Source of the DNA: Deltaproteobacteria bacterium RIFOXYA12_FULL_61_11
GTDB lineage: Bacteria; Bdellovibrionota_F; JAHFAK01; YA12-FULL-61-11
Assembly: GCA_001799195.1 (NCBI GenBank)
Contig: MGSU01000125.1
Span: forward strand, 8,231 to 14,719
DNA length: 6,489 nucleotides
Direction of reading: 5' to 3'
Positions 3 to 6,489 of this stretch are shown one piece after another (within the stretch, counting starts at the first letter, position 1; each line of letters opens with the position of its first letter). Position numbers and translations under genes: made by a program. The notes below the pieces were generated by a model. The model ran no database searches. It was not told the DNA's origin and worked only from the letters and a program-made list of their open reading frames with translations.

Positions 3-1067
3 ACCGTCGACGACGCCAACATGATGGTGATAACGGCAGTCGGAGGCGACAACCAGAGCACGACCGTCGAAGGTCGCGAGCGCTACGGCATCAACGTTCG
101 CTACGCCAGGGACTACCGCGACGACTTGCAGGCCCTGCGCCGGGTGCTACTGCCGCTCCCGAATGGTAAGGGCCAGATCCCCATGGAGGAGATAGCGGAC
201 GTCGTGCTCGCCCAAGGGCCGTCGATGATTCGCGACGAGAATGGGCTCTTGGCGGGCTACGTCTATGTGGATTTCGACACGGCCAAGGTCGACGTGGGCA
301 CGTACGTCGAGCGCGCCAAGGAGGCCGTTGGCGCCAGCGTGAATATACCGACCGGCTACTCCATGACCTGGAGTGGGCAGTACGAAAACATGCTGCGCGT
401 GAAGGAACGGCTCAAGCTGATCCTGCCGCTTACTCTCGTGCTCATCTTCGTGCTGCTCTACATGAACACCAAGTCGGTGTTCAAAGCGACCATCGTGATG
501 CTCGCGGTGCCGTTCTCCGCGGTCGGCGCGGTCTGGCTGCTGTGGCTCCTCGGCTACAACATGTCGATAGCCGTGTGGGTCGGGGTGATAGCGCTCATGG
601 GCCTCGACGCGGAGACCGGCGTGTTCATGCTGCTGTTCCTCGACCTGTCGCACGACGAGGCCGAGAAGTCGGGGCACCTCAACACCCGCGGGGATCTGGT
701 CGAGGCCATCATCCACGGCGCGGTCAAGCGCGTCCGGCCCAAGGCCATGACAGTCTTTGCGGCCATGCTCGGACTGTTGCCCATCATGTGGTCCATCGGC
801 ACAGGCGCGGATCTCATGAAACGCATCGCGGCACCGATGGTCGGGGGGCTTGTGACTAGCTTCGGGATGGAACTGCTCGTCTACCCGGCGATCTACTACC
901 TCTGGAAACGCCGTGGCCTTCATGACGGCCCGCCCACCGAGACACCATCGGGGTATACAAACGACGAGGGTACCATAAGACTTGCAGGGCCGCCTGTGGT
1001 CAACACTGAAGCACAGTCCGAATTGGTTTCTCGATCAGCAGGTCGAGGGGCAGGTCGAACTCGCTGA
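3..1067 (+). CDS. cusA: CusA-type heavy-metal efflux RND pump, C-terminal part (5' truncated by window)
   Basis: This is the C-terminal third (about 354 residues) of an inner-membrane HME-RND transporter, the proton-driven pump of a CusCBA-type tripartite system exporting Cu(I)/Ag(I). The reading frame is open to the window edge, so the start lies outside. An early motif, TTVEGRERY, matches the CusA periplasmic region. It is followed by the GPSM segment and five hydrophobic segments (about 419-478, 487-555, 559-648, 744-798, 840-902). From memory of E. coli CusA, the proton-relay residues Glu939 and Lys984 correspond to Glu in DAETGVF (about 612-614) and Lys in RVRPKAMT (about 741-743); both are present. 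The methionine copper site would lie upstream. Homology appears to stop after LWKRRGL (about 920). A further ~48 residues resemble nothing I know and use A/T-ending codons more freely. Six of 18 Ile codons are ATA, unlike the downstream genes. The family call is firm; metal specificity is inferred. Confidence 0.93.
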   Translation, partial: TVDDANMMVITAVGGDNQSTTVEGRERYGINVRYARDYRDDLQALRRVLLPLPNGKGQIPMEEIADVVLAQGPSMIRDENGLLAGYVYVDFDTAKVDVGTYVERAKEAVGASVNIPTGYSMTWSGQYENMLRVKERLKLILPLTLVLIFVLLYMNTKSVFKATIVMLAVPFSAVGAVWLLWLLGYNMSIAVWVGVIALMGLDAETGVFMLLFLDLSHDEAEKSGHLNTRGDLVEAIIHGAVKRVRPKAMTVFAAMLGLLPIMWSIGTGADLMKRIAAPMVGGLVTSFGMELLVYPAIYYLWKRRGLHDGPPTETPSGYTNDEGTIRLAGPPVVNTEAQSELVSRSAGRGAGRTR

Positions 1068-1146: not shown

Positions 1147-2313
1147 ATGAAGTTTTCTACCCTCCTCTTCGGCCGGTTGCGGAACCGCACCCTGGCCTTC
1201 TTCCTCTTCACCGGCTTGACGCCGACTCTGCTCATCAGCGCCTATCTCCTGGTCAAGGTCCGCACCGACCTGCTCGAGAACGTGATGCAGACCCAGCGGC
1301 ACTCCATCGAGACCATCCGCAACGCGGTTTCCCATCATCTCATGTCCTACGAGCGCGGCCTGCTCACCCTGGGCGAGGAAATGGACGTGCAGAGCCTGGA
1401 ACCCGAGCGCATGGCCAGGGCCATGTCGCAGTTCCTGTTCCTCTCCGACCTTTTCTACAATGTGTTCTTCTTCGACCTCGAGGGCATGCTGCTCTGGGCC
1501 GAGTACAAGGATCGCTATCAGGGCAACCGCTACCTGCTCGGCAAGAACGTCCTGACCCAGGAACAGGAGGATTTCGACGACATCAAGGAGAACCTCCTGC
1601 AATTGAAGAAGACGGGGCAGAACCTGCGCTTGTGGTGGACCGATCCCCAACAGCAACGGACCTACCTGCAGATCATGACCCCGGTGTATTCCTTCGAAGA
1701 TCCCGCCACCCTGATCGGTATGCTCAGCGCCCGCATCCGGCTGAAGAGCTTCGAGTTGGAAGAGATGCTGTCCTTCTATCCGCTCGCTGCGGGCGAATAC
1801 CTGGTGATCGCCGATCTCGAGGGCTCGGTCTTCGTCGAGCTGGGCAAGGTCGCCGATCGGCCGTTACGCCGGCTCCGCTTCGTCTCCGAAGAAGAGCGTC
1901 TCGACGAGCGGACCGTCGGTTCCGGTCGTTTCACCATCGAGGGCAACGAACACCTCATCTCCTTCTCGGCCATCGCCGGCTTCGACCTGTTCATCGCCAT
2001 CGGCCAACCCTACGATCAGGTCGTGGCCTTCCTCCGCCACCTGCTCAATTCCCTCGCCGTGCAAATCCTGCTGGCGGTCATCCTGGTCGTGCTGCTGGGC
2101 GTCTACTTCTCCGATCACCTGAGTGCACCGATCCTGGCGCTGGTCGAGGGCATCAATCGGGTTGGTGCCGGGGACACCTCCCACCGCATTACCATCGCAC
2201 GCGATGACGAACTCGGGCAGGCCAGCGCGGCCTTCAACACCATGGCCAGCAACCTCCAACGCCAGCGGTTCCTGGAGTCCATCTGGAAGCGGACATGGCG
2301 CGAACGGGACTGA
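1147..2313 (+). CDS. Cache-HAMP membrane sensor protein lacking an output domain
   Basis: This 388-residue protein is built like the sensory half of a transmembrane receptor. TM1 is at about residues 15-36, a periplasmic region at 37-298, TM2 at about 299-321, and a HAMP domain at about 321-372. The periplasmic part has two similar beta-rich strings, YNVFFFDLEGMLLWA (104-118) and YLVIADLEGSVFVELG (218-233), typical of a double-Cache fold that binds small molecules. HAMP hallmarks are the proline in LSAPILALVEGI and the DDELG motif (353-357). Only about 15 residues follow HAMP, so there is no kinase, GGDEF, cyclase, phosphatase or chemotaxis domain. Output presumably goes through a partner. 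I chose ATG 1147 because it gives a normal N-terminal signal anchor; the frame is open upstream to 982, but that extension looks non-coding. No Shine-Dalgarno is visible. The stop overlaps the next gene by 19 bp. The ligand is unknown. Confidence 0.85.
   Translation: MKFSTLLFGRLRNRTLAFFLFTGLTPTLLISAYLLVKVRTDLLENVMQTQRHSIETIRNAVSHHLMSYERGLLTLGEEMDVQSLEPERMARAMSQFLFLSDLFYNVFFFDLEGMLLWAEYKDRYQGNRYLLGKNVLTQEQEDFDDIKENLLQLKKTGQNLRLWWTDPQQQRTYLQIMTPVYSFEDPATLIGMLSARIRLKSFELEEMLSFYPLAAGEYLVIADLEGSVFVELGKVADRPLRRLRFVSEEERLDERTVGSGRFTIEGNEHLISFSAIAGFDLFIAIGQPYDQVVAFLRHLLNSLAVQILLAVILVVLLGVYFSDHLSAPILALVEGINRVGAGDTSHRITIARDDELGQASAAFNTMASNLQRQRFLESIWKRTWRERD
2285..2289 (+). promoter_or_regulatory. Ribosome binding site for the transporter-HEAT gene
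   Basis: GGAAG lies 5 nt before the ATG at 2295, inside the 3' end of the sensor gene. It supports that start and independent or coupled reinitiation in the 19-bp overlap. Confidence 0.6.
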
Positions 2314-5039
2314 AACGCCTCACCGCCTTCTCCTTGCGGCTGTTCTACCAGGAAGCGGCCTGGAAATTTTACCTGCTCAATTTCTTGCACAAAGGCCTCG
2401 TCAATATCCTCTACCTGATCTTTTTCACCCTCTTCCTGAAACGTCAGGGCACCGATGCTATCCCCTATTTCTATATCACCTTGAATCTGTCCATGATCCT
2501 CGCCCAATTCCTGTTGCTGCGCTCGGGAACCATCCGGCCACTGCGCATCCTGCGTACGCAGACCGGGGTATTATTCCTCGCGGCCGTGGCCTTCGTGCCC
2601 TTCTTCGGGGAGGCTCCGTTCCTCTTCGTCTTCTCCTTGCTGACCGTCACCATGCTCTACAACAACCTGACCGGGTTGATGCTCATGGAGCACCTGGCCC
2701 AAATCTATGCGCCGCATCAGCTCAAACGCAGGCTCTCGGCCATCATGGCCGCGGGCACGCTCGGCAATATCGTGACCGGTTTCGGGGTGAAATTACTGCT
2801 CGAATGGATCTCCTTGCGCGCAATCTATTGCATCGGGCTGGGTATGATCGCTGCGGTGCTCTTCCTGCTCCCGTCCTTACGCCGGCACGGCCGTGGTGAA
2901 GCCGCGGAGAGCCGAACCGAGGGATCCTCCCCTCCTGCGGGTCAGTCGTTGCGTGCGATCTTCAGCACAGCCTTTGGCGGGAACCTGGTCGTCTGGTTGT
3001 TCCTCCTCGGGTTCATCGTCTTCATCGCCCGGTATTTGCTCGACTTCGGTTTCAACCTGACCGTGGACGTCCTCTACGCCACCGAAGGGGATTTTGCCGC
3101 GTTCCTGGGCGTCTTCACCTCGGTCCTGGACCTCATGGTCGTGCTGGTCCAGTTCTTCCTCACCAGCCGGTTATTGCGGCGCTGGCGTTTGGGCGCCGTG
3201 CTCGGCCTCCTCCCTCTGGGAGCCATGCTCATGTCCTTGGGAGCCGCAATCTCCAATCTGCCCGTACTCTTCGTCTTCACGCAGTTCCTCTACGTGCTCC
3301 TGTTCAAGGTCTTCTACCTGCCGATCAGCCACATCACCCTCAACCCCTTCACCGAACAACACCGGGCACGGGCTCGCATCGGCATCAATTTCAGTTGTTC
3401 CTTGGGGACCCTCCTCGTCGGGGTGTTCATCCTTCTCTTCAAGCCGATGCTCGGGCCTCAGGTCATCGCCTGGGGGTTGTTCTGTCTCACCGGCCTGATG
3501 TTCCTGGTGGTCGTGGGGGTCGATCGGGCCTATGTGCGCAGTATCGTCGAACGCTTGGCCTCGGGCTCGGCACAGCATCGCGGGGAGTTGGTCTCGTCCC
3601 TGCGCTACACCTCGTACACGGTCAGCCGGGATACGGTGGGCACCTTGTTGCGGGATCCGGATCCGGGCGTGCGCTTGGAGGCCTTAGAGGCCGTCGCCGA
3701 ACTCCAGGTCCAGGACCAGAGGAACTTGCTCCTCGAGCACCTCGAGGCCGAGACCGATCAACGGGTGTTGGCCAAGTCCTTCCGTCAACTCATCGCTCTC
3801 GAGCAGGGGGCCGATAGCCCGGCCTTGTTGCATTTTCTGGTACACGGCAAGGACGAGCGTATCTTGGCCAGTATTCTCGAGGCCCTCGGCGAGGTCGATC
3901 ACTCCCCGAGCTTGAACCGACTGATCGCCGAGCACCTCGACCACCCCAATCACCGGGTCAAGGCCAGTGCCATCCTGTGGTCCTTGCGCCGGAGCCAGGA
4001 CGAAAAGGTCTTGCAGCGAGCCCTGGAAGCCCTGGTGAGCTTCATCGAAGCCGAGGCGGAGCTCTTGCGGAGGACCGCCGGGGTGGTCATGGCTATGCAC
4101 CCCACGCCCTTCTTCCTCTCCGCCCTGGAACAGTTGCTCGACGACCGAGAACAAGGGGTTCGGGGCAATGCTCTCTTGGCCCTGGCCCGGCTCGATACCC
4201 CGGGGGCCCTCGGAGTCCTCAACCGTTACCTCGCGAAGGAAGCCCAACCCGAGTTGCACGCCAGGGCACTGGTCCTCCAGCAGCGTCTCCAAAGTGCGGC
4301 CTTGCTGGCCCTCTCGCAAGCCCTCGAGAGCATGTCGCCGAGTGACATCCTGGCCCTGGAGCGCAGCTTCGATGTCGATGGCGACCGACTCTCGGCCAGG
4401 CTCGCGGCGGCTTCGCCCGAGGCGAGGGTCGCGCTGCGGGGCTATCTGCAGGAAGAGCGCAACCAGGCTGCCTGTAGTTTCGTCCTCGGGGTTGTGGTCT
4501 CCGGTCTGCCGCCGGTCCAGAAGATCCTCGAACTCGTCACCGAGCTACCCGAGGAAGCCCACTGGTCCGGTTTCTTCAGGGTTCTCGAACACTTCGACCA
4601 GGAGGGCGGTGGGCACGCCGGGCGGAGGTTCTTCCGGGCTGTCCTGGACAGCGCGTGGCGCCACAGTCTGGTCCTGGGACTCTGTTCGGAACGCGGGGTC
4701 GGAGGAGAGTCTCTCATCAAGCTCAGCAACCGTCGCAATCGCTTGTTGCACGCGCTGGTGCATCTTGCCGCGGCCAAATGTTCCAAGGAAGAGAACCTGC
4801 ACCAGGCCTTCGACCATCTCTCCGACGGAGACGTGGTCGAACGCTCCCTGGCCCGCGAACTGATCGAAACCGTGCTGTCGGTCGCTCTCGGCCGGCAACT
4901 TATCCCTCTGTTCCGTTACCGGCATCAGCCCCAGCGGTTGCTCGAGCGCCCCCTCGAAGAGCACGCAGAGCTCCTCGCCACGTGCCGCGGTTTGCCGATC
5001 GATCGTCTCGTCGATGAGGAGGGACATCCATGTTCGTGA
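2295..5039 (+). CDS. MFS/NTT-like membrane protein fused to a C-terminal HEAT-repeat domain
   Basis: This 914-residue protein has two halves. Residues about 25-410 contain roughly 11-12 hydrophobic segments (e.g. 32-48, 57-76, 91-122, 147-167, 175-193, 230-247, 266-290, 298-318, 322-345, 365-383, 390-408). They are split by a polar loop at 195-222, the usual central loop of an MFS-type transporter. Residues about 430-665 contain alpha-helical HEAT-like repeats with D-P-x-x-x-V-R-x-x-A-type cores: LLRDPDPGVRLEALEAV (451-467), HLDHPNHRVKASAILWSL (547-564), LLDDREQGVRGNALLALARL (614-633), plus weaker units. Helical but less regular sequence runs to the end. Large proteins of this layout are often labelled Npt1/Npt2-type nucleotide transporters; I see nothing here proving nucleotide transport. 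The membrane half may transport or sense, and the HEAT half should be a cytoplasmic protein-binding scaffold. No cyclic-nucleotide-binding domain is visible. It overlaps both neighbours (19 and 10 bp). Architecture is secure, function unknown. Confidence 0.88.
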   Translation: MARTGLKRLTAFSLRLFYQEAAWKFYLLNFLHKGLVNILYLIFFTLFLKRQGTDAIPYFYITLNLSMILAQFLLLRSGTIRPLRILRTQTGVLFLAAVAFVPFFGEAPFLFVFSLLTVTMLYNNLTGLMLMEHLAQIYAPHQLKRRLSAIMAAGTLGNIVTGFGVKLLLEWISLRAIYCIGLGMIAAVLFLLPSLRRHGRGEAAESRTEGSSPPAGQSLRAIFSTAFGGNLVVWLFLLGFIVFIARYLLDFGFNLTVDVLYATEGDFAAFLGVFTSVLDLMVVLVQFFLTSRLLRRWRLGAVLGLLPLGAMLMSLGAAISNLPVLFVFTQFLYVLLFKVFYLPISHITLNPFTEQHRARARIGINFSCSLGTLLVGVFILLFKPMLGPQVIAWGLFCLTGLMFLVVVGVDRAYVRSIVERLASGSAQHRGELVSSLRYTSYTVSRDTVGTLLRDPDPGVRLEALEAVAELQVQDQRNLLLEHLEAETDQRVLAKSFRQLIALEQGADSPALLHFLVHGKDERILASILEALGEVDHSPSLNRLIAEHLDHPNHRVKASAILWSLRRSQDEKVLQRALEALVSFIEAEAELLRRTAGVVMAMHPTPFFLSALEQLLDDREQGVRGNALLALARLDTPGALGVLNRYLAKEAQPELHARALVLQQRLQSAALLALSQALESMSPSDILALERSFDVDGDRLSARLAAASPEARVALRGYLQEERNQAACSFVLGVVVSGLPPVQKILELVTELPEEAHWSGFFRVLEHFDQEGGGHAGRRFFRAVLDSAWRHSLVLGLCSERGVGGESLIKLSNRRNRLLHALVHLAAAKCSKEENLHQAFDHLSDGDVVERSLARELIETVLSVALGRQLIPLFRYRHQPQRLLERPLEEHAELLATCRGLPIDRLVDEEGHPCS
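5017..5022 (+). promoter_or_regulatory. Strong Shine-Dalgarno for the PhnD-like gene
   Basis: A perfect AGGAGG lies 7 nt before the ATG at 5030, within the 3' end of the transporter-HEAT gene. It fixes the start and suggests that this soluble exported protein is made in larger amounts than its membrane partners. Confidence 0.85.
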
Positions 5040-5878
5040 AAGCAGTGTACAGTATGGTGGCGCTGTTGACCCTTGCTACGGCCGAGGCCTCCTCCTGGAA
5101 GCTGCGGTACGAGTTGGAGGAAGCCGATACCCTGACCTTCGGCATCTTGCCCTACAAAGACCCCAAGCAGGTGCGCAGTGAACTCGAGCCCCTCGCCGGC
5201 TATCTCTCGAAACAGCTCGCCAGACCCGTCTCCGTGCTGGTGGCCTCCAGTTATCAGAACCTGGCCAGATTGGTGGACAGCGGGCGGATCTCGGTGGCCT
5301 GGTTCTCCCGGACCTCCTATGATCTCCTCCTGGCCAAACAACATAGGCCTTGGGCCATACTCTGTCATGCCTTACCGCTGAACGAGAGAGGGTACAGGGG
5401 CTTGGTGATCACCAGGGCCGACAGCGGCATCGCCGACCTCGGCCAGCTCCGCGGGAAATCCTTCGCCTATGTCGACCGTCATTCCGGCACGGGTTTCATG
5501 GCCCCCAACCAGATCTTACGCGATCGGGGTATCACCCCGTTGAGCTTCTTCGGCACCATCGTCTTCACCGGCAGTCACGGTGCCAGCGCCAAGGGGGTGT
5601 TGGAAGGACGTTTCGATGCCGCCGCGGTCTACGAAGACCTGGTCGCCCTCTTGCCGCCGGCCGAGAGGGAGCGTTTGCGCATCCTCGGCACGAGCGGTTG
5701 GATCGGCGCCGACCCACTGGTGGTCCTCGATCAGGGCAACAACCCTCAGCATGAACGGCTCAGGGCCGTGTTGCTCGGGATGGCCACAGACCCGGAAGCG
5801 AACCAGGTCCTCTCTCACCTGATCAAGGTTCGCGGCATCAAGTGCTTCAGCCGCTCGGATGTCGCCGGGGGAACCTGA
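5030..5878 (+). CDS. PhnD-like periplasmic substrate-binding protein (orphan)
   Basis: This 282-residue exported protein belongs to the phosphate/phosphite/phosphonate-binding (PhnD-like) periplasmic fold. The N-terminus is a signal peptide (K4, hydrophobic 5-18, likely cleavage after AEA at 18-20). Family features follow: FGILPYKDPKQV (38-49), the PLAGYLSKQL segment (54-63), SSYQNLARLVDSG (73-85), VAWFSRTSY (89-97), LRGKSFAYVDRHSGTGF (140-156) and FTGSHGASAKGVLEGRFDAA (179-198). By analogy with E. coli PhnD, Tyr75, Tyr97, the Ser152-Gly-Thr154 loop and His183 would line an oxyanion pocket. The usual STSG loop is altered to SGTG, so the ligand may differ. No phnC/phnE-type ATPase or permease is nearby. 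Its place between a membrane fusion protein and a SUMF1-like protein suggests a sensor or delivery role rather than classical ABC import. It overlaps upstream by 10 bp and downstream by 1 bp. Family call strong, ligand unknown. Confidence 0.9.
   Translation: MFVKAVYSMVALLTLATAEASSWKLRYELEEADTLTFGILPYKDPKQVRSELEPLAGYLSKQLARPVSVLVASSYQNLARLVDSGRISVAWFSRTSYDLLLAKQHRPWAILCHALPLNERGYRGLVITRADSGIADLGQLRGKSFAYVDRHSGTGFMAPNQILRDRGITPLSFFGTIVFTGSHGASAKGVLEGRFDAAAVYEDLVALLPPAERERLRILGTSGWIGADPLVVLDQGNNPQHERLRAVLLGMATDPEANQVLSHLIKVRGIKCFSRSDVAGGT
5867..5872 (+). promoter_or_regulatory. Weak G-rich ribosome binding site before the SUMF1-like gene
   Basis: GGGGGA lies 5 nt before the ATG at 5878. Together with the TGATG stop/start overlap it supports translation coupled to the PhnD-like gene. 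Confidence 0.4.
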
Positions 5879-6489
5879 TGAAGCCTCGCTCCCGGCGTTC
5901 GATCCTCCTCCTCGTAGGTGGCTCCGTCGTGCTCGTCCTCGCGGCCTTGACGGCCCTGGGTATCTATCGAGAACCGGCAACAACTCCTCCTGGGACCATG
6001 GCTGGTGCTCCCGGGCAACCGGGAGAGCACGACGAACAGGTGCTGCTCGAGGGGGGGTGCTTCGCCATGGGCAGGCCGGACGGTCGAGTCGGAGAGACCC
6101 CTGTCCACCGCGTCTGCGTAGCGAGCTTCTTGCTCGACCTGCACGAGGTCACGGTGGCGCAGTATCGGCGTTGCCGGGAGGCCCATGCCTGTGGAGAACC
6201 GGGACGAGCCTTGCAGCAGCGCGGTTGTACCTGGGAGGGGAAGGACTCGGAGGACCTGCCGGTGACCTGCGTGACCTGGTTCGATGCCAATGGTTATTGC
6301 CGTTTCGTCGGGCGGGAATTGCCCACCGAAGCGCAATGGGAATTCGCGGCTCGCGGACCGGAGGGCTCGGCCCATCCCTGGGGCGACGCCTCGGCCGACT
6401 GCAGTCGCGCGGTCTACAGCGAGCGCTATGGTACTTGCAAGCACCGAACCCCGCAAGCAGTCTGCTCCCGGCCTGCGGGCAGAAACCCG
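5878..6489 (+). CDS. Membrane-anchored SUMF1/FGE-sulfatase-family protein, N-terminal part (3' truncated by window)
   Basis: The 204 visible residues have a basic N-terminus (MKPRSRR), a signal anchor at about 8-29 without a lipobox, a Pro/Gly-rich linker (33-50), and then the start of a formylglycine-generating-enzyme-like (SUMF1, C-type-lectin-like) fold. Family motifs are EGGCFAMG (58-65), ETPVHRVCV (73-81), HEVTVAQYRRC (89-99), LPVTCVTWFDANGYC (127-141), RELPTEAQWEFAARG (146-160) and HPWGD (166-170). Ten cysteines (61, 80, 99, 105, 117, 131, 141, 175, 187, 196) suggest periplasmic disulfides. The C-terminal region that would carry the catalytic cysteines of true FGE lies beyond the window. 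Enzyme versus binding or structural role therefore cannot be decided; many bacterial members are non-catalytic. The ATG overlaps the previous stop as TGATG, making it the fourth cistron of the operon. No sulfatase gene is in view. The frame is open to the last base. Confidence 0.9.
   Translation, partial: MKPRSRRSILLLVGGSVVLVLAALTALGIYREPATTPPGTMAGAPGQPGEHDEQVLLEGGCFAMGRPDGRVGETPVHRVCVASFLLDLHEVTVAQYRRCREAHACGEPGRALQQRGCTWEGKDSEDLPVTCVTWFDANGYCRFVGRELPTEAQWEFAARGPEGSAHPWGDASADCSRAVYSERYGTCKHRTPQAVCSRPAGRNP
6005..6030 (+). other. Intragenic hairpin with GCAA tetraloop
   Basis: GTGCTCCCGG (6005-6014) can pair with CCGGGAGAGCAC (6019-6030), leaving a two-base bulge (6026-6027) and a GCAA loop (6015-6018) of the GNRA type. 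It lies in the linker-coding part of the SUMF1-like gene, between membrane anchor and folded domain. No U-tract follows, so it is not an intrinsic terminator. A role in pausing or mRNA stability is possible, but it may be incidental to Pro/Gly codons. Confidence 0.35.

Follow-up and report, generated by a model that had tools for sequence, protein, structure and literature searches.

The first three genes of a four-gene overlapping operon, encoding a Cache-HAMP receptor, an NTT-HEAT protein and a PhnD-type periplasmic binding protein, are a real conserved module, in which known families stand in a new combination. In the reading favored here, to which we give a probability of roughly 0.55, ligand sensing by PhnD and the Cache-HAMP receptor would gate, or signal through, the NTT-HEAT protein, the three forming a receptor-transporter module.

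The operon lies in the window, that is, the whole stretch of 6,489 nt analyzed, on contig 125 of a MAG (4.64 Mb, 342 contigs, 87% complete). ORF coordinates confirmed the 19, 10, and 1 bp overlaps claimed earlier among the four genes, which are all on the + strand (Table 1). The ORF of the fourth gene continues beyond the window end, crosses an assembly gap and reaches contig position 14986 (about 292 aa); the long ORFs that come after it run in the opposite direction. Window positions 3–1067 are the end of a CusA/CzcA-type heavy-metal efflux gene, which stops 80 bp short of the first operon gene and probably has nothing to do with the operon; adaptor-like and outer-membrane-factor-like genes lie further upstream on the contig.

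Table 1. Operon features, in positions of the window.
Feature	Positions	Strand	Basis or remark
Cache-HAMP receptor, 388 aa	1147..2313	+	Pfam HAMP and dCache_1; AF2 model; Foldseek matches
Conserved post-HAMP receptor tail	2260..2310	+	Proposed to dock onto the NTT-HEAT protein; Trp380 codon 2284-2286
NTT-HEAT protein, 914 aa	2295..5039	+	ORF; HEAT_2; AF2 model; start codon inside gene 1
12-helix NTT/MFS-fold membrane domain, residues 17-423	2343..3563	+	Profile and structural match to AtNTT1
HEAT/alpha-solenoid scaffold, residues 424-900	3564..4994	+	HEAT_2; helical pairs in AF2 model
PhnD-type periplasmic binding protein, orphan, 282 aa	5030..5878	+	Pfam Phosphonate-bd (PF12974) E=7.9e-51; nearest solved structures; pocket conservation
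SUMF1/FGE-like envelope protein	5878..6489, cut by window end	+	Pfam FGE-sulfatase (PF03781) E=4.7e-31

When gene 2 (NTT-HEAT) was used as the query against 386 genomes, one genome (G119) was found to carry a full-length relative between a gene 1 relative upstream and a gene 3 relative downstream, the arrangement of the window, here with 4 bp and 1 bp overlaps. In a second genome (G383), the relative adjoined a gene 1 relative only. Both belong to one phylum, Candidatus Riflebacteria (39 genomes). Loci of this phylum were then picked by gene 2 alone and their neighbors counted afterwards, an upstream Cache-HAMP gene being accepted within 500 bp. A Cache-HAMP gene preceded the NTT-HEAT gene at 33 of the 36 loci whose sequence reached far enough, 19 times with an overlap, and a PhnD gene followed it at 22 of 34 testable loci (15 overlapping). 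As PhnD was lacking at the other 12 of the 34 (e.g., L081, L134, and L145), it is not essential. Among the loci examined, two to four paralogous copies of the trio were present in several Riflebacteria genomes. Although the first two proteins share ~20–27% identity between the window's lineage and Riflebacteria, the order Cache-HAMP > NTT-HEAT > PhnD was kept. Riflebacteria contamination was rejected as the source of the operon, its tetranucleotide correlation being 0.92–0.95 with contigs of its own genome and at most 0.88 with Riflebacteria loci.

Gene-tree distances of the three genes correlated with values of 0.88, 0.90, and 0.85, and the observed pairing of receptor and NTT-HEAT paralogues was the best of 1152 within-genome arrangements. 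The three genes are co-inherited, with each partner tracking its own paralogue, a congruence that could follow from operon linkage alone and is no proof of contact. Genes that are just co-transcribed neighbors with no joint function could show it as well; that explanation is nevertheless very improbable, given that distant lineages retain the gene order and the overlaps at such low identity, in several paralogues per genome and in different surroundings.

The distribution of the trio was narrow. With a 32-sequence profile, the matches fell into two groups: trio-type full-length proteins, which scored at least 630 bits and came exclusively from Riflebacteria or the window's genome, and matches in all other phyla, which scored at most 289 bits. 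The trio was not found beyond these two phyla. Close NTT-HEAT homologues were not found in a scan of named genomes, a relatives search over 59 genomes returned only distant NTT-HEATs, and the window's own genome held PhnD and HEAT paralogues without a similar operon. No literature description joining HEAT, Cache, HAMP, and PhnD was found.

The preliminary description had put all four genes into one system. Rather than being scattered, homologues of the first three form a conserved, overlapping module, found again with unchanged gene order in a second phylum, but the fourth does not recur with them: the SUMF1-like gene was not found at the Riflebacteria trio loci by a single-sequence search with its in-window part as query, which a very distant one could escape. 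In alignments to solved FGEs, both catalytic Cys of the C-terminal motif were replaced by non-Cys residues, and FGE catalysis by this protein was rejected on that ground. With the gene not found at trio loci and both catalytic Cys missing, the four-gene system is unsupported, and the SUMF1-like gene is best seen as a local addition outside the conserved module. The stoichiometric coupling proposed in the preliminary description, and direct contacts among the products, are putative.

The receptor consists of TM1 (residues 11–35), a periplasmic dCache part (36–300), TM2, HAMP (324–371), and a short helical tail (372–388). Pfam matched HAMP with E=1.4e-12 and dCache_1 with E=6.8e-7, the latter below its own cut-off. 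Consistently, the AF2 model (pLDDT 87) comprised a double Cache on the periplasmic side, a pair of TM helices, the HAMP domain and a last helix that reaches the C-terminus, and a Foldseek search with it matched dCache chemoreceptors and kinases. No kinase, cyclase, PP2C, GGDEF, or MCP output domain follows the HAMP. That the protein is a sensor without output, as claimed earlier, was borne out by its homologues, as all 33 receptors stop shortly behind HAMP. In detail, Trp380 in the post-HAMP tail is invariant (33/33), and the 33 proteins end 6–24 residues past it (the window protein, 8 residues). Mean pairwise identity was 20% in the periplasmic part, 40% in HAMP, and 34% in the 13-residue tail. 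HAMP proteins outside Riflebacteria in the named-genome scan were longer, 433–893 aa. Because the receptors stop just behind HAMP with no output domain, they must hand the signal on to another component, for which NTT-HEAT is the most likely candidate. Judged from these alignments, an inner end that is conserved yet carries no enzyme suggests a protein partner for the receptor; it could also act on a distant, unlinked one.

The second protein had been described as a polytopic membrane protein with a scaffold. This was retained as a membrane domain plus a HEAT solenoid, and the membrane domain was corrected from generic MFS to NTT type. Pfam matched HEAT_2 (E=2.9e-17) in three stretches and MFS_1 with E=3.4e-6, below cut-off, while a profile of the membrane domain (25 members) matched AtNTT1 with E=3e-10; TLC was matched weakly by just 2 of the 25 members. 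In the AF2 model (pLDDT 82), a long and presumably cytoplasmic alpha-solenoid comes after the 12 TM helices. AtNTT1 (9j3m) was the top Foldseek match and also had the highest Z (31.8 over 407 residues at 3.5 Å) in structural alignments spanning only the membrane domain, with other MFS folds within 1 Z unit. The NTT nucleotide-translocator family is therefore the best match of the membrane domain, and a generic MFS identity was dropped on the profile and structural matches to AtNTT1.

ATP/ADP exchangers of the NTT type have four essential charged residues, K155, E245, E385, and K527 in AtNTT1. The alignment covers two of these four: the Glu385 equivalent is D250 (D or E in 30 of 32 sequences), and the Glu245 equivalent is hydrophobic. 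As the Glu385 position is kept and Glu245 is not, nucleotide exchange cannot be assumed. In the HEAT core, the charged residues R522, E529, R554, and R592 are near-invariant, a pattern typical of a binding surface. With one of the two testable charged positions kept and such residues in the solenoid, the NTT-HEAT protein might be a non-transporting sensor or signaling platform, as UhpC is with UhpB, whose solenoid would draw in a soluble effector from an unlinked gene and for which the receptor and PhnD are one input. We regard this as unlikely, since the 12-helix transporter fold is intact in the model, the membrane-core positions P57, A268, F270, and Q286 are invariant, and no conserved effector gene was seen beside the trio loci. 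In UhpC-UhpB of Escherichia coli, an MFS-fold membrane protein works with a membrane sensor, and the trio resembles it in this pairing; however, UhpB is a histidine kinase, and UhpC has no HEAT scaffold.

NTT-HEAT proteins and NTT-HEAT-cNBD fusions have been described, often with a cNMP-binding partner, and their function is unknown (Major, Embley and Williams 2017; PMC5381601). The trio shares with this family the NTT domain fused to HEAT repeats and the regulatory protein that the operon often encodes separately. In the trio, however, a periplasmic receptor made up of Cache-HAMP and PhnD stands where the others often have a cNMP-binding protein, and the trio NTT-HEATs group in a single clade (support 100) that leaves out six other NTT-HEATs. 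At 28 loci of NTT-HEAT or HEAT relatives outside the trio type, no Cache-HAMP or PhnD gene lay next to the relative on its strand. Ten neighbors of other NTT-HEATs, selected on visual inspection as likely cNMP-binding proteins, all matched PF00027 (10/10), and a cNMP-binding domain, fused or adjacent, is absent from the window operon. Further, an ordinary NTT-HEAT gene in Riflebacteria adjoins a gene in which a cNMP-binding domain is fused to GGDEF (L080:6852-7751), hinting at c-di-GMP in ordinary NTT-HEAT systems.

The nearest solved structures to the PhnD protein were ArrX, PtxB, and AioX. The oxyanion pocket of AioX is formed by Tyr88, Tyr131, Ser161, Ser163, and His192, with Cys106 and Asp210 specific for arsenite (PMC5908839). 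The five pocket residues map to Y75, Y122, S152, T154, and H183 in the window PhnD, and among 21 homologues Y75 was conserved in 20, Y122 in 16 (the rest His), S152 in 21, H183 in 19, and position T154 in 18 (the rest Thr). These conserved residues support the oxyanion-like ligand put forward in the preliminary description. The arsenite-specific positions are Ser93 (for Cys106) and Tyr201 (for Asp210) in the window protein, and none of the 21 homologues had a Cys at the Cys106 position; arsenite sensing via an AioX-type Cys was rejected accordingly. Similar to AioX/ArrX-AioS/ArrS-AioR (PMC5908839), the trio joins a PhnD-fold orphan having common oxyanion-pocket residues with a membrane sensor, whereas it has no histidine kinase or response regulator and lacks the arsenite-specific Cys and Asp. 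In Methylococcaceae (L234:6658-9419, L235, and L238), a PhnD gene directly precedes the gene of a histidine kinase with Cache-HAMP-PAS-HisKA architecture, and the pair looks like a two-component sensor that depends on PhnD. By analogy, these pairs may serve as a precedent for PhnD and Cache-HAMP as an input pair; in both cases a PhnD gene adjoins a Cache-HAMP receptor gene, but theirs have a kinase output and no NTT-HEAT, while the trio receptor has a bare HAMP end.

No PhnE permease scored above the family cut-off in ten genomes (the window's MAG, which is 87% complete, and nine trio-bearing Riflebacteria), and PhnD therefore looks like an orphan. Outside Riflebacteria, an NTT-HEAT gene of G184 (L083:8402-12327) directly follows an orphan SBP_bac_3 gene, with a cNMP-binding gene and response regulators alongside. 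The lack of a PhnE above cut-off, the adjoining transporter-like gene and the SBP_bac_3 arrangement would all fit plain uptake, in which PhnD hands its ligand to the NTT-HEAT membrane domain as in a binding-protein-dependent secondary transporter (the TRAP principle) and the Cache-HAMP protein is accessory. Such a role is quite improbable, as the receptor is a more constant partner than PhnD (33/36 vs. 22/34 loci) and HAMP and the tail are its best conserved part.

In the favored reading of a sensing module acting on NTT-HEAT, periplasmic PhnD would capture a tetrahedral oxyanion or phosphonate-like ligand through the pocket residues observed and, by analogy with AioX/AioS and the PhnD-kinase gene pairs, may present it to the periplasmic Cache of the receptor. 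The helical tail with its invariant Trp would dock onto NTT-HEAT, either on its HEAT solenoid or on its membrane part, and a shift of the HAMP would gate transport by the NTT domain or turn NTT-HEAT into a signaling platform. An extracytoplasmic sensor would thereby take the place of the usual cytosolic cNMP-binding partner. Tentatively, and at somewhat less than even odds, these proteins may represent a class of HAMP receptors without enzyme or methyl-accepting output that directly gate a transporter-scaffold; control of the transporter by an extracellular ligand would then take place within the membrane and need neither phosphotransfer nor a second messenger. In Riflebacteria, this class would have been duplicated into several copies per genome.

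NTT-HEAT proteins occur widely among bacteria, and the trio ties one clade of them to a sensor with a recognizable ligand-binding protein. It thus offers a handle on NTT-HEAT control, on the ligand via PhnD and on the coupling via one invariant Trp. The arrangement suggests an undescribed route by which an outside signal may act directly on a transporter-like protein; if the receptor does act directly on the transporter-scaffold, this would be a new output for HAMP receptors.

Additional genes follow the trio in some lineages. In some Riflebacteria paralogues, a PNP_UDP_1 gene encoding 961–984 aa overlaps the PhnD stop codon (L130:3421-6306, L144:3854-6739, and L146:10844-13798), the one at L146 also having a weak radical SAM match. 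In an Ozemobacter-like clade, a conserved protein of 370–380 aa comes after the trio (L079:11872-13008, L120-L123, and L153); it has no Pfam match and carries the motif GYVEQAIGG.QDPL..PISISRNG.
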